Positions 31,211 to 36,614 of a DNA stretch of 64,000 bases are shown piece after piece (the first letter of the stretch is position 1; each line of letters opens with the position of its first letter). A program made the translations under genes and the position numbers. Under the pieces are notes generated by a model, which saw only the letters and a list, made by a program, of their open reading frames with translations, was not told the origin of the DNA and made no database searches. This stretch comes from an uncultured Pseudomonadales bacterium. Its GTDB lineage: Bacteria; Pseudomonadota; Gammaproteobacteria; Pseudomonadales; Porticoccaceae. The stretch is taken from contig CALSRZ010000003.1 of NCBI GenBank assembly GCA_943788895.1, positions 285,310 to 349,309 of the forward strand. Direction: 5' to 3'.

Positions 31211-31387
31211 ATGCTTAACTACCGACTGGTCGCAGTTCTAATTTTTCTTAGCAGTGTCGTTATACCTCTGGCCTCTAAATGGGCCATCGAGCCACAGGGC
31301 AGCTGGTTTAGACCCTTTGTCGTATGGGCAATAGTCGTCTTTGCCGCCTATATTCTGCAGCGCCACAGGAATACCAATGAGTCTTGA
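31211..31387 (+). CDS. 58-aa small membrane protein upstream of CbrA-like kinase
   Basis: Not in ORF track; [58 protein letters not shown]; stop overlaps next start. Confidence 0.7.
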   Translation: MLNYRLVAVLIFLSSVVIPLASKWAIEPQGSWFRPFVVWAIVVFAAYILQRHRNTNES

Positions 31388-34238
31388 TATAGCCACTGCT
31401 GCGGCCGGCTTTATTATCCTTGGCGCACTCTGCTCATACCTGCTGGCACGCCACGGCGGCAGAGTCAGCAACAACCTGATTTTAGTCCTCGCACTGTTTG
31501 CCGGCAGTGGCTCACTGCTGGCCACCGGTACTATTGAGATGGCTGGCCGCTATGGTTACAGCACATTGCTGGCGCTGTTCGCATTCACCATGGTGTTTAT
31601 CTTTTCGCCATTGATTTTCTATCCGATTCGCAGGCTCAGCGCGATTATTCGCTTTGCCTCCCTGGTGGACTTTTTAACCTTTCGCTTTCGCGGCAAGAAC
31701 GTTGCCAGAGTCGCCTGCAGCTGCCTGATAATCGCCACCATACCGCTGTTTCTGGCGCAGTTGCTGGCGCTTGAGTCGGTGCATGATTTTCTCTTTGATA
31801 GCAATAAGGTGTTCTTCTGGCTGTTTATAGTCTTGGTTATCACCAGTATTAACTGGCGCACCATTGAGATCAGCCCGGTGCAGAACCTGCGCTGGATTAT
31901 GGCCGCTGCCGGTCTTTTATTACTGCCGGCTCTGGGGCTGGCGGCGCTGGTTTCAGTGCAGTCAATTTTTGGCAGTGTTGGCGAGATGAACAGCTGGGTA
32001 GCGGATAGCGGGCAGCGATTTATCGTTCAGCGTATGGACTCTTCCTACAGTCTGTTTATTATTTTTCTGGCGGCGAGTTTTGCCCTGCCGGTTAACTTTA
32101 CGATTGTTATCTCTGAGCATATCTCCAATCGACAGGCTGGGCTGACCGTCTGGGCCTATCCCCTGCTGATGCTGTTGGCGAGCATACCGGTGTTCCCTCT
32201 ACTGTGGTCGGGCATCGCAGTTCAATCCGCGTCGCCACTCCAGGATTATTTATTCGCTCTGCCCGCTCTGACAAATCACCCGATAATATCCGGGCTCGGC
32301 GCGGCGAGTATTATTCTAATTTCTATCGCGCTGCTCTGCAGCATGTCGACCATGCTGGCGAGAATGGCTCTCAACAGCTTTGTCCTGCCCAGCAAACCAC
32401 TTCAGGATCAGCCTCGATTGATTCGCTGGATCAATCTGCGCCTGTTATTGATTTCCTCAAGCATTCTGCTGACTGCGGTACTGCTCAGCCTGGTTATCAA
32501 AGAGCACAGCATCACCGATTTATACCTGGTTGGCTTTGCCGGTCTGGCGCAATTGACACCGGGCATGCTGGCTTCTATTTATCTTCCCAAAGCCAACCGC
32601 AGGGGCTTTATTGTCGGCCTGCTGGGTGGCCTATCAGTCTGGTTGATCGGATTGGCTCTGCCGCTGTTAGTGGGCGACTGGCAGTGGCAGATCCCGAGCA
32701 CAGAGAGGGTATTGATTTTCGGTATGGAGAGCTGGGATACCTGGGCCTTTGAAGCGCTGATGGTCAATATTGTGCTCTGCACACTGTTCTCGGTATTCTC
32801 CAAAATGGATAAACAGGAACAGTTATTCGCGCGACTCTGTATGGTCGACAATATTTATATTCCGGCACGAGTGCAGCTCCACCAGAACTCTGTTGCGGAG
32901 ATCAATCACAGTTTGCGCAATTCCCTCGGCGATGAAGCTGATTTGGTTATCGACCGGGCCCTTAACGCGCTGGAGCTGGATAATAGTGAAACCAGGCCTG
33001 CGGCGCTGAGAAAAATTCGCGACCATATCAATTCTTCCCTGACACTGCGTTTCGGGGTGCTGGCCGCCGACCGCATCATGGAGGAATCGATTCCGCTGGC
33101 TGCGGCGGCAGCGCAGGAGTCGGATGATATTTATCTTATTGAATCGGTTTTAGCCATTCACAGTGATCGCCTGACTGGTATTGCCAGCGAGCTCAACAAG
33201 CTGCGTATTCACCATCGAGAGATTCTCGACAACCTCCCTGTTGGCCTAGTGGCTCTGGGTCAGAGCGGTGAGATTCACAAGTGGAACAGCACCATGGCCA
33301 AGTACACCGAGATCGATGAAAACAGCGCTAGAGGCGCCCTGGTCGACGATCTGCCAGAGCCTTGGAGCTCGACTATCAATCAATTTCTCAGCAGCAATAA
33401 CAGCAGAGAAGAGAATCTACAGATTGAACTGGAGGGCCGCCCTCGCTGGTTTAGCCTGCAGAAATCGGCAGACCAAAGTACCGATAATGACTCCATCCTG
33501 CTAATTGAAGAGAGCACCAATTCGGTGCTGCTAACCCAGAACAGCATTAACAATGAACGCCTCGCCTCGGTGGGTCGACTGGCGGCTGGAGTGGCCCACG
33601 AGATTGGCAATCCGGTAACCGGTATCGCCTGTATAGCGCAGAACCTGCAACATGAAACTGAAGCCGCTGAGATTCAACTATCTGCCGAGCAGATTCTCTC
33701 GCAAACCGATCGTATCAACCAGATTGTGCAGTCGCTGATCAACTTCTCCCGTGGCGAGCGAAGCCTGCAAAATGCACTGCAATCGGTCAATGTGCGCGAT
33801 GCCATTGAGGAGGCTATAAAACTGCTTAGCCTGAGTAGTAAACAGCTGGAAGAACAATTTATCTGCAGCCTGAATGCAGACAGCTACATCCTTGGCGATC
33901 ACCACCAGCTGGTACAGGTGCTGATCAATTTATTGAGCAATGCCCGCGATGCCTCTACAGAGGAAAGCCCTGTCACCATTGAGGCTGAGCTCGAGGGGCA
34001 GAAGCTGACAATTATGATCAGTGACAGTGGCACTGGTATCGACAATAATATTCGTGATCGTATCTTTGAGCCCTTTGTGACCTCAAAGCAGCCTGGAGAG
34101 GGGACCGGCCTTGGTCTGTGGATTGTATTTAACCTGGTGAAAAATCTTGGTGGCGAGATCAATCTGTCAAGCCCAGCGGTCAATAGTGATTGCGGTACTA
34201 CAGTCCGACTGCAGTTCACAATTCACCAGCCAAAGTAA
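31377..34238 (+). CDS. CbrA-like sodium:solute symporter/PAS/sensor histidine kinase
   Basis: Multi-TM SSS-like N-terminus; [11 protein letters not shown]-box; [19 protein letters not shown] ATPase motifs. Confidence 0.9.
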
Positions 34239-34326: not shown

Positions 34327-34878
34327 ATGAGCAATACCGCACCAAAAAGTCATATCCTTATCGTTGAAGACGAAGAGATTATCCGCGGCTCTCTGCGCAA
34401 GCTGCTCGAGCGCCATGATTTTCTGGTCAGCGATGCCGTGAGCATCAAATCTGCTCATGAACTGTTCGACCTCTCCTGTTTTGACCTGATTATTAGTGAT
34501 CTGCGATTACCCGGACAGCTCGGCACTGACCTTATCCAACTGGCTAAGCCGGTTCCGGTGCTGATTATGACGAGCTATGCGAGCCTGCGTTCAGCGGTTG
34601 ATACCATGCGTCAGGGCGCAGTGGATTATATTTCCAAGCCCTTTGATCACGATGAGATGATGGTTTCAGTGCGACGGATTATCGACTCGCCAAAAAAACC
34701 GGTGGAAGTACCTACAGACCTATCATTGGAAGGTTATTTCACCCGGTTTGTGCTTGAAAATCAGGATCACATGAGCGAGACAGATCTGGCTAAAAAACTT
34801 GGTATTAGTCGCAAGAGCCTCTGGCAACGACGCAATAAAATGGGCATTAACCGAAAAAAAACTGCAATAAAACTGTAA
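34327..34878 (+). CDS. Response regulator with REC and Fis-type HTH only (RegA/PrrA-like), no AAA+ domain
   Basis: HILIVEDEEIIRG, LIISDLRLPG, HTH SETDLAKKLGISRKSLWQRRNKMGI; 183 aa. Confidence 0.9.
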   Translation: MSNTAPKSHILIVEDEEIIRGSLRKLLERHDFLVSDAVSIKSAHELFDLSCFDLIISDLRLPGQLGTDLIQLAKPVPVLIMTSYASLRSAVDTMRQGAVDYISKPFDHDEMMVSVRRIIDSPKKPVEVPTDLSLEGYFTRFVLENQDHMSETDLAKKLGISRKSLWQRRNKMGINRKKTAIKL

Positions 34879-34884
34879 TTACAC

Positions 34885-34922
34885 TTGTAAGCAGGGTTGA
34901 TTGGGATACAATCATCCAATCA
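34885..34922 (+). promoter_or_regulatory. Candidate sigma70-type promoter with overlapping inverted repeat
   Basis: TTGTAA-N16-TACAAT; TGATTGGgatacaatcatCCAATCA inverted repeat spans the -10. Confidence 0.4.
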
Positions 34923-35090
34923 GATCCATGAGATTTGATCATAATAATAATAAAAAATAAAAATAATAAAATCCGGATGGATACGAAAGGAGCTTTCTAC
35001 GGCCCTATAGCATTAAGTTGAAATAGCCGCAGAAACAGTTAGGGGGGGCTGTCTTAGGACACCCCTTATTTACACTCTTTTTATTACCTG
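34919..35090 (+). ncRNA. Candidate CrcZ-like structured sRNA between response regulator and pcnB
   Basis: A-rich AATAATAATAAAAAATAAAAATAATAA, hairpin ttctacggc...gccgcagaa, stem agggg...tgtc-ttag-gaca-cccct; position equals Pseudomonas crcZ locus. Confidence 0.4.
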
Positions 35091-35228
35091 CTTTTCATTA
35101 CACGCTTTCAAATCTTAATTACACCTCTTTTTTTTATTCAATATCAGCCTATGGCATCTTAGTTTTCCGAAAACAGAGTTCCTCTGTTAAACTCTCGAAT
35201 CTGATCACAACCTAATCGGCAGCACTTA

Positions 35229-36614
35229 ATGCTGGAACGCATAAGCAAGTTTTTCAAAACTGATAAAAATTCAAACAGCGCTGGCGCCTATGTCTATGGC
35301 CCAAGCGAACATTGCCTGTCGCCTGATATGATCAATAGGGATGCCTACAATGTCGTTGATGTGCTGCAAAAAGCTGGATTTGAAGCCTATGTGGTCGGCG
35401 GTTGCGTTCGCGATCTGCTACTTGGATTAAAGCCTAAAGATTTTGACGTCGCGACCAGCGCCAAGCCCTCGGAAGTGAAAGCACTGTTTCGTCGATCGCG
35501 AATTATCGGCCGTCGCTTTCAAATTGTGCATGTGCAATTTAGTCGTGAAATTATTGAAGTTACCACTTTTCGCTCAAACGAAAAACAGAGTGGCAGCAAG
35601 AGTAGCAATAAAAATCAGCGCCAGCAGACCGATAGCGGCATGCTTACCAGGGACAATGTATTTGGCAGCGTAGAGGAAGATGCTTCACGCCGCGACCTCA
35701 CTGTTAATGCCCTCTACTACGATCCCAGTGATAACAGCATCCACGACTTTACCAATGGCCTCGACGATATAGATGATCGTATTATTCGGATTATTGGCGA
35801 CCCTTCAACGCGCTTTCGTGAAGATCCGGTGCGCCTGTTGAGAGTCGCGCGCTTCGCGGCAAAGCTCGGCTTTGATATAGAGGCCCGCACGGCGAAACCA
35901 ATGAAACATCGGGCCGGCGATTTGCAGCAGGTTTCACCGCCGCGGCTGTTTGATGAAACATTAAAATTATTTATGAGCGGCAATGGCCTGGATACCTTTA
36001 AGCTACTGCTCGATCACAAACTCTTCGAACATATAGTTCCGCAGTTGAACCCCATGCTTAACGACAAGCAGGGAGAACCCGTGAAGCTGGTCCGTCAGGC
36101 ACTTGTCAACACCGACAAGCGAATTCGCAATAAACAGCGAGTGACTCCGGCATTTATCTACGCCGCACTGCTCTGGCCTGTGGTGCAGCGACTGTCGAGC
36201 AACTACGAGAAGAATGGCAACTCCCCGCCCTATGCCCTGAGCAAAGCCGCTGGAGATATTATTGCCGCACAGATTCCCGTGACGGCAATTCCCAAACGCT
36301 TCACTATTCCAATGCGCGAAATCTGGGATCTGCAGCTGCATATGAAGCGTCGCGGCGGCAACCGCGCCAAGCGTCTGGCCGAGCATCCTCGCTTTAGAGC
36401 CGCCTATGATTTTATTTTGCTGCGCGAACAGGCCGGTGAAGATTTAAAAGGTCTCGGCGACTGGTGGACGAAGTACCAGGATGCCAATGAAGATCAGCGC
36501 CAATCTATGGCTGAAGAAATATTGAGCAACGACAAACGACCCAAGAGACGTCGTCGCCGTCGCAATAGCCCTAAGCCAGATAATAGCAGCAGCCCTAAGC
36601 CCGAAAATGGCTGA
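35229..36614 (+). CDS. pcnB: Poly(A) polymerase I
   Basis: YVVGGCVRDLLLGLKPKDFDVAT, RRDLTVNALYYD. Confidence 0.95.
   Translation: MLERISKFFKTDKNSNSAGAYVYGPSEHCLSPDMINRDAYNVVDVLQKAGFEAYVVGGCVRDLLLGLKPKDFDVATSAKPSEVKALFRRSRIIGRRFQIVHVQFSREIIEVTTFRSNEKQSGSKSSNKNQRQQTDSGMLTRDNVFGSVEEDASRRDLTVNALYYDPSDNSIHDFTNGLDDIDDRIIRIIGDPSTRFREDPVRLLRVARFAAKLGFDIEARTAKPMKHRAGDLQQVSPPRLFDETLKLFMSGNGLDTFKLLLDHKLFEHIVPQLNPMLNDKQGEPVKLVRQALVNTDKRIRNKQRVTPAFIYAALLWPVVQRLSSNYEKNGNSPPYALSKAAGDIIAAQIPVTAIPKRFTIPMREIWDLQLHMKRRGGNRAKRLAEHPRFRAAYDFILLREQAGEDLKGLGDWWTKYQDANEDQRQSMAEEILSNDKRPKRRRRRRNSPKPDNSSSPKPENG
36567..36614. repeat. 24-bp imperfect tandem duplication ending at the pcnB stop codon
   Basis: agccctaagccagataatagcagc / agccctaagcccgaaaatggctga. 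Confidence 0.8.

Follow-up and report, generated by a model that had tools for sequence, protein, structure and literature searches.

The window, a stretch of 64,000 nucleotides, probably encodes a free-standing small RNA of ~155 nt at positions 34919–35073, which would be a CrcZ-like decoy of Hfq that descends from a sigma-54/CbrB-driven RNA and has been rewired to sigma-70. The reading rests on sequence, namely on the conservation and covariation of the RNA, the synteny, the joint change of promoter and regulator, the absence of Crc, and the persistence of the RNA without cbrAB, while transcription, Hfq binding, the decoy function and the target class are what we infer.

The window comes from a genome of 1.95 Mb, in a genus whose named members are the marine SAR92-clade/HTCC2207 Porticoccaceae. 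The gene order is sfsA, dksA, gluQ, a CbrA-like kinase, a response regulator, a gap, pcnB and folK. The gap between the regulator and pcnB (34879–35228, 350 bp) contains no ORF of at least 60 aa, in line with an earlier sequence-only reading, which had described ~350 bp without a convincing ORF. The features considered are the following.

31377–34238, + strand: CbrA-like transceptor kinase (SLC5/SSS, STAC, HisKA and HATPase); the ORF is listed from TTG 31341, with the first ATG at 31377
34327–34878, + strand: CbrB-like response regulator, 183 aa, REC and Fis-type HTH; Response_reg is the only domain found
34885–34912, + strand: candidate sigma-70-type promoter TTGTAA-N16-TACAAT (TTGTAA 34885–34890, TACAAT 34907–34912); position and N16–17 spacing recur in nearly all SAR92 loci
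34919–35073, + strand: CrcZ-like sRNA, ~155 nt, a held-out covariance-model match with inferred 5' and 3' ends
34919–34939, + strand: 5' hairpin SL1, from the MFE fold; all 6 modelled pairs have double changes in 39 sequences
34943–34971, + strand: A-rich single-stranded tract AATAATAATAAAAAATAAAAATAATAAAA, unpaired in the fold, a putative Hfq distal-face (A-R-N) site
34973–34989, + strand: conserved linker CCGGATGGATACGAAAG (GGATGGATTGCGAAAG in most relatives), kept in congeners and in sigma-54-type loci of other genera
34995–35034, + strand: hairpin SL2, from the fold; the inner stem covaries
35043–35067, + strand: 3' hairpin SL3, from the fold, likely an intrinsic terminator with tail UUAUUU; 8 of 12 pairs have double changes
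35180–35193, + strand: pcnB promoter-like element TCCTCTGTTAAACT, 3' of the terminator, kept in almost all SAR92 loci, including those without the sRNA
35229–36614, + strand: pcnB, poly(A) polymerase (TIGR01942, E=1.9e-157)

The HisKA/HATPase part of the kinase was found by domain match, and residues 38–574 match the SLC5-STAC structure of Pseudomonas CbrA (PDB 10ED, E=4.6e-58). The protein is 33% identical over 913 aa to the syntenic kinase of Amphritea. To judge from these comparisons, it is a true CbrA homologue, in which an SLC5-STAC transporter part is joined to a histidine kinase. The CbrAB-like system that had been noted upstream of the gap is genuine on the side of the kinase, but the regulator consists of REC and HTH only, without AAA+, so that this is no ordinary CbrAB pair.

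The four sequence elements pointed out in the earlier reading are all present in the gap. The TTGTAA-N16-TACAAT arrangement lies at 34885–34912, although the match alone is at chance level (1 found against 1.7 expected in shuffles). The A-rich tract resembling Hfq distal-face sites does not occur once in 100 shuffles, and its A positions are nearly invariant across 31 congeners. The imperfect hairpin is formed by TTCTACGGC (34995–35003) and GCCGCAGAA (35026–35034), with 8 of 9 positions paired, and the terminal GC stem corresponds to the GC-rich hairpin SL3. The latter fails the terminator rule of the scanner because its U-run is poor (UUAUUU) in the window's species, as compared with U5–U6 in most relatives. 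The single-sequence fold of the window RNA is only moderately stable (z = −2.2; −3.6 for a close relative).

Conservation within the genus

The regulator-pcnB gap was extracted from 40 congeners. The arrangement seen in the window, that is, promoter-like hexamers, SL1, A-rich tract, linker, SL2 and SL3, is present in 30 of them and in one more that is cut by a contig end. Automatic consensus folding of the full MAFFT alignment recovered the terminator only, because SL1 and SL2 were misaligned, and it was replaced by a cleaner subset of 21 alignable sequences, with the window excluded, and a structure written by hand from these same sequences. In this set, 94.5% of the base-pair cells are paired and 12 pairs have changed on both sides. 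None of 500 shuffles reaches the observed values on any measure; the sliding control somewhat favours a structure drawn from the same sequences, and kinship among them can make the shuffle control look too favourable.

A covariance model built from the 21 sequences finds the held-out window with 59.8 bits (E=8e-8), and also its two nearest relatives, which were likewise held out. Searched against whole genomes, it returns the window sRNA as a single held-out match (E=1.6e-6) and exactly one copy in 37 of the 50 congeners, window included. Of the 25 pairs, 19 have double changes when 39 sequences are aligned to the model, and no shuffle among 500 does as well on any measure; this alignment is itself fitted to the model. 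The proposal to look for the locus in relatives and to examine covariation has thus turned out in favour of an RNA: the locus is conserved, the covariation is strong, and the loss of the A-rich tract or the stems in relatives, named beforehand as evidence to the contrary, is not what is found.

Two kinds of exception were noted. In HTCC2207 and six further genomes (G002, G018, G026, G033, G041 and G042), the regulator is kept, but the stretch from its stop codon to the pcnB promoter has lost the RNA. The gap in these loci is 89 bp, and the cultured model HTCC2207 (L122) is thus without the RNA; a covariance-model search of whole genomes revealed no second or relocated copy in this clade. The SAR92 isolates H921 and H231, on the other hand, do have it. 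In five small genomes (G009, G010, G031, G032 and G049), the order is instead gluQ, RNA, pcnB, with cbrA and cbrB gone from between, and no close homologue of the regulator was found elsewhere in them. The RNA is therefore kept there without a neighbouring two-component system. A literature search on SAR92 sRNAs returned nothing relevant.

Regulator, promoter and Crc

We now turn to the regulator. The REC and HTH parts of the window protein are ~77% and ~80% identical to the two ends of congener proteins of 422–486 aa, and the GAFTGA loop is absent from all congener regulators of the genus, these longer forms included. On a tree of REC and HTH, the AAA+ domain is lost three times (G000/G029/G048, G011/G014, and genus g102), and one of these deletions is placed by the tree in the ancestor of the window's species. 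The clade of g1, g4 and g102 (support 91/86) is likely rather than certain to be a unit. Loss of sigma-54 itself was considered and rejected, as rpoN is present in 47 of 50 congeners. The rpoN of the window genome (L212, G000:C1:65800-68400) is frameshifted and intact in relatives, which is probably an assembly error or recent damage.

NtrC proteins that lack GAFTGA are known to act at sigma-70 promoters (PMC10274813). The SAR92 case resembles those of Rhodobacter and Caulobacter in that an NtrC-type regulator without the sigma-54 loop is tied to sigma-70 promoters (PMC10274813). It differs in that AAA+ has also been removed outright three times in SAR92 and its relatives, and in that the regulated gene encodes an sRNA, from a promoter that changed along with the regulator. 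Compared to the CbrA/CbrB system, the kinase has the same SLC5-STAC and histidine kinase parts and the regulator has related REC and HTH parts, but GAFTGA is missing genus-wide and the whole of AAA+ in the window.

The promoter region is consistent with such a change. Nearly all SAR92 loci carry a TTG-type −35 and a TANAAT-type −10 element directly 5' of SL1, almost always 16–17 bases apart, and no sigma-54 promoter (TGGCAC-N5-TGC-type) was found upstream of the A-tract in any SAR92 locus, window included. Many congeners have a palindrome, TGTTTC-N5-GTAACA, upstream of the sRNA, and in nine of them the distance from its centre to the end of the −10 box is constant at 82–83 bases. The halves resemble the CbrB subsites TGTTAC and GTAACA (PMC8871633), but where they are kept they stand 5 bp apart, while those of CbrB are 12–14 apart. 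The window's species and its two relatives with a short regulator showed no such palindrome ahead of the RNA. A palindrome TGTTACATTAGGTAACA is located elsewhere in the window genome (L270, G000:C5:366530-366546), between folA and a DUF3450-exbB-type operon. It is also present in other SAR92 genomes, including those in which the sRNA palindrome is gone, and could possibly mark a second target of the regulator.

In other genera of the Porticoccaceae, the regulator at this locus has 460–484 aa and bears GAFTGA, and it is accompanied by half-sites like those of CbrB, an A-rich tract and a sigma-54 promoter such as TGGCACGCTTCCTGCT. Several of these loci share the linker GGATGGATTGC with the SAR92 RNA, and the SAR92 covariance model finds the best of their RNAs at E about 1e-5. 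Moraxellaceae-type genomes and an Amphritea japonica plasmid carry loci of a similar kind, with GAFTGA or GSFTGA, CbrB half-sites, a sigma-54 promoter and up to 23 overlapping AAnAAnAA matches. Among 65 loci with an A-rich gap (G198, with a frameshifted regulator, was left out), GAFTGA or GSFTGA and the sigma-54 promoter are both present in 26, both absent in 39, and never mixed. It is important to point out that this complete coincidence spans related genomes, with about one or two independent losses and a tree that needs only two changes, so that a Fisher p on the 65 loci is no test of independent events and the events are too few for a sign test for correlated loss. Of the loci counted as GAFTGA-negative, two (L145 and L154) have GAFSGA, that is, the loop is not deleted. 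These two and L171, all from other Gammaproteobacteria, have regulators with GAFSGA or with the loop lost and no sigma-54 promoter, and nonetheless A-rich gaps with TGTTAC/GTAACA sites; they are possible parallel promoter switches.

Crc was searched for with the P. aeruginosa protein, checked against PDB 4jg3. It has relatives in the majority of genomes of the order and in 38 of the 112 genomes of the family, where the proteins of the 40–48% class show, as aligned, the degenerate nuclease motifs of Crc. The sister genera have it, but none was found in g1, g4, g93 and g102 at E ≤ 1e-20, nor in the 50 SAR92 genomes, in which the ~27% matches inspected are catalytic ExoIII. Because the genus has no Crc, a part played by the RNA in carbon catabolite repression is only presumed. 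Hfq is retained, with hfq in 49 of 50 congeners, and the protein of the window genome is canonical except for Y25F at the distal residue Y25. Four genomes of the family genus g100 (G229, G230, G231 and G233) have two sRNA copies ~270–330 nt apart; Crc is present in them and no close CbrB orthologue was found.

Proposed function and alternatives

In Pseudomonas, CrcZ uses A-rich stretches to bind the distal face of Hfq and titrates Hfq, which is thereby kept from mRNAs (PMC4063720). The SAR92 RNA has much in common with CrcZ, CrcY and CrcX of Pseudomonas and Azotobacter (RF01675): the cbrA-cbrB-RNA-pcnB position, A-rich AAn repeats suited to the distal face, no ORF, and a terminator 5' of pcnB. 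It is, however, only ~155 nt long with one compound A-tract, compared to 407 nt and six A-rich stretches in CrcZ, and it has a sigma-70-type promoter, a regulator without AAA+ and no Crc in the genus. The Rfam CrcZ model, which had been suggested as a check, fails to match the window even with the cut-off relaxed to E ≤ 10 and finds nothing in the sampled genomes of its genus or family, while it does find Pseudomonas-type genomes at E about 1e-90; no other relevant Rfam family was found, either at the gathering threshold or at E ≤ 10. Of the earlier proposal of a diverged carbon-catabolite sRNA in the place of CrcZ, the conserved sRNA between cbrB and pcnB thus stands, but the Rfam match, the sigma-54 promoter and Crc do not accompany it. 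As these, together with the several A-sites, all fail, the RNA is not filed as CrcZ, but as a diverged, compact and rewired relative, orthologous in position, which probably works like it. Another RNA of interest is sRNA99 of Acinetobacter baumannii, which the part of the source used here (PMC12802169) describes as A-rich with CrcZ-like behaviour in Hfq RIL-seq, while stating there no link to a cbrAB locus.

The mechanism that we propose is as follows. By filling the distal face of an Hfq hexamer, the unpaired A-rich tract would free mRNAs whose ribosome-binding regions are A-rich from translational repression. The ancestor of the RNA would be an A-rich sRNA driven by sigma-54 and CbrB, of the kind that sister genera still have at this locus. 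Among SAR92 and its relatives (g1, g4 and g102), the CbrB-type regulator would have lost the sigma-54 contact loop, the sRNA promoter would have become sigma-70-type and Crc would have been lost; deletion of AAA+ would have followed on three or more occasions, one of them in the ancestor of the window's species. This species probably transcribes the RNA at a basal level from sigma-70, and the short REC-HTH regulator may adjust it.

The Hfq hexamer has six A-R-N pockets. With one unpaired A-rich tract of 29 nt, long enough for all six, a decoy that would act in the absence of Crc, with expression that is basal or modulated only weakly, is therefore favoured. With one tract only, against six in CrcZ, its titration power may be low. 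The Y25F change in Hfq and the poor U-tract in the window's species likewise speak against a decoy. A pure decoy does not explain the linker beside the tract, which is kept beyond the genus and is a possible seed or second protein site.

The strongest rival takes the linker as its starting point. In a class II-type, Hfq-dependent base-pairing sRNA similar to ChiX, the A-tract would dock on the distal face of Hfq and the linker GGAUGGAUUGCGAAAG would be the seed for target mRNAs. Many folds leave the linker unpaired, and it is better conserved than the stems are, in sister genera too, and an A-tract (here with the A-R-N motif) plus a terminator tail is the class II layout, although the U-tail is weak in the window's species. 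The CrcZ position, the association with CbrAB and the A-rich homologues in Moraxellaceae, with their many AAnAAnAA matches, point instead to titration, which makes base pairing the less probable main role, by a clear distance; it is compatible with the decoy, and the two are not exclusive.

It is quite improbable that the region is merely a 5' leader or attenuator of pcnB, a possibility raised at the outset. The RNA does lie directly 5' of pcnB in the same direction, with a weak U-tract in the window's species. However, the terminator hairpin covaries and ends in U5–U6 in most relatives, its distance to pcnB varies widely, and the conserved element TCCTCTGTTAAACT intervenes between the two and stays where the HTCC2207-type clade has lost the RNA. 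Even less probable is binding of CsrA/RsmA through GGA motifs in the linker: GGATGGAT and AAAGGAGC occur at 34975–34993, but there are only one to three such motifs, they lie outside hairpin loops, and the most conserved feature is the A-tract. A short protein-coding gene starting from the ATG in GGATGG, preceded in some species by a purine-rich stretch, can practically be dismissed, as several congeners have no ATG there (GTTGGATTGC), no reading frame is conserved across it in the congener gap sequences, frames shift by one base between neighbours, the peptides are short and unrelated, and the covariation is of the RNA type.

Returning to the Hfq decoy, we regard it as an evenly balanced matter whether the RNA has outlived its whole control system, with Crc and sigma-54 control lost and the RNA staying under sigma-70, while the regulator lost first its loop, then AAA+ (three times), and cbrAB finally disappeared in the smallest genomes. 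If this is true, Hfq titration would stand by itself as a basal function of marine oligotrophs. The genomes themselves provide a stepwise natural series, from sigma-54 enhancer control, through loss of the loop with a sigma-70 promoter and no Crc, to loss of AAA+ and then of kinase and regulator, with the RNA staying. With such a series, one can test whether the Hfq decoy is the ancestral, indispensable part of the CrcZ circuit and whether Crc, sigma-54 and CbrB are the parts that can be exchanged. The locus also offers a concrete sRNA to seek in SAR92-clade metatranscriptomes.

Finally, CbrAB has been described as unique to Pseudomonadaceae (PMC8871633, PMC6296734); the CbrA-CbrB locus with an A-rich sRNA extends, by the present comparisons, to Porticoccaceae, Moraxellaceae-type and Amphritea genomes. 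The Amphritea japonica locus (L178) is on pJCM14782, a 94-kb replicon labelled as a plasmid, in the order dksA-gluQ-cbrA-cbrB-(A-rich gap with sigma-54 promoter)-pcnB-folK-panB-panC, and this block from dksA to panC is normally chromosomal.
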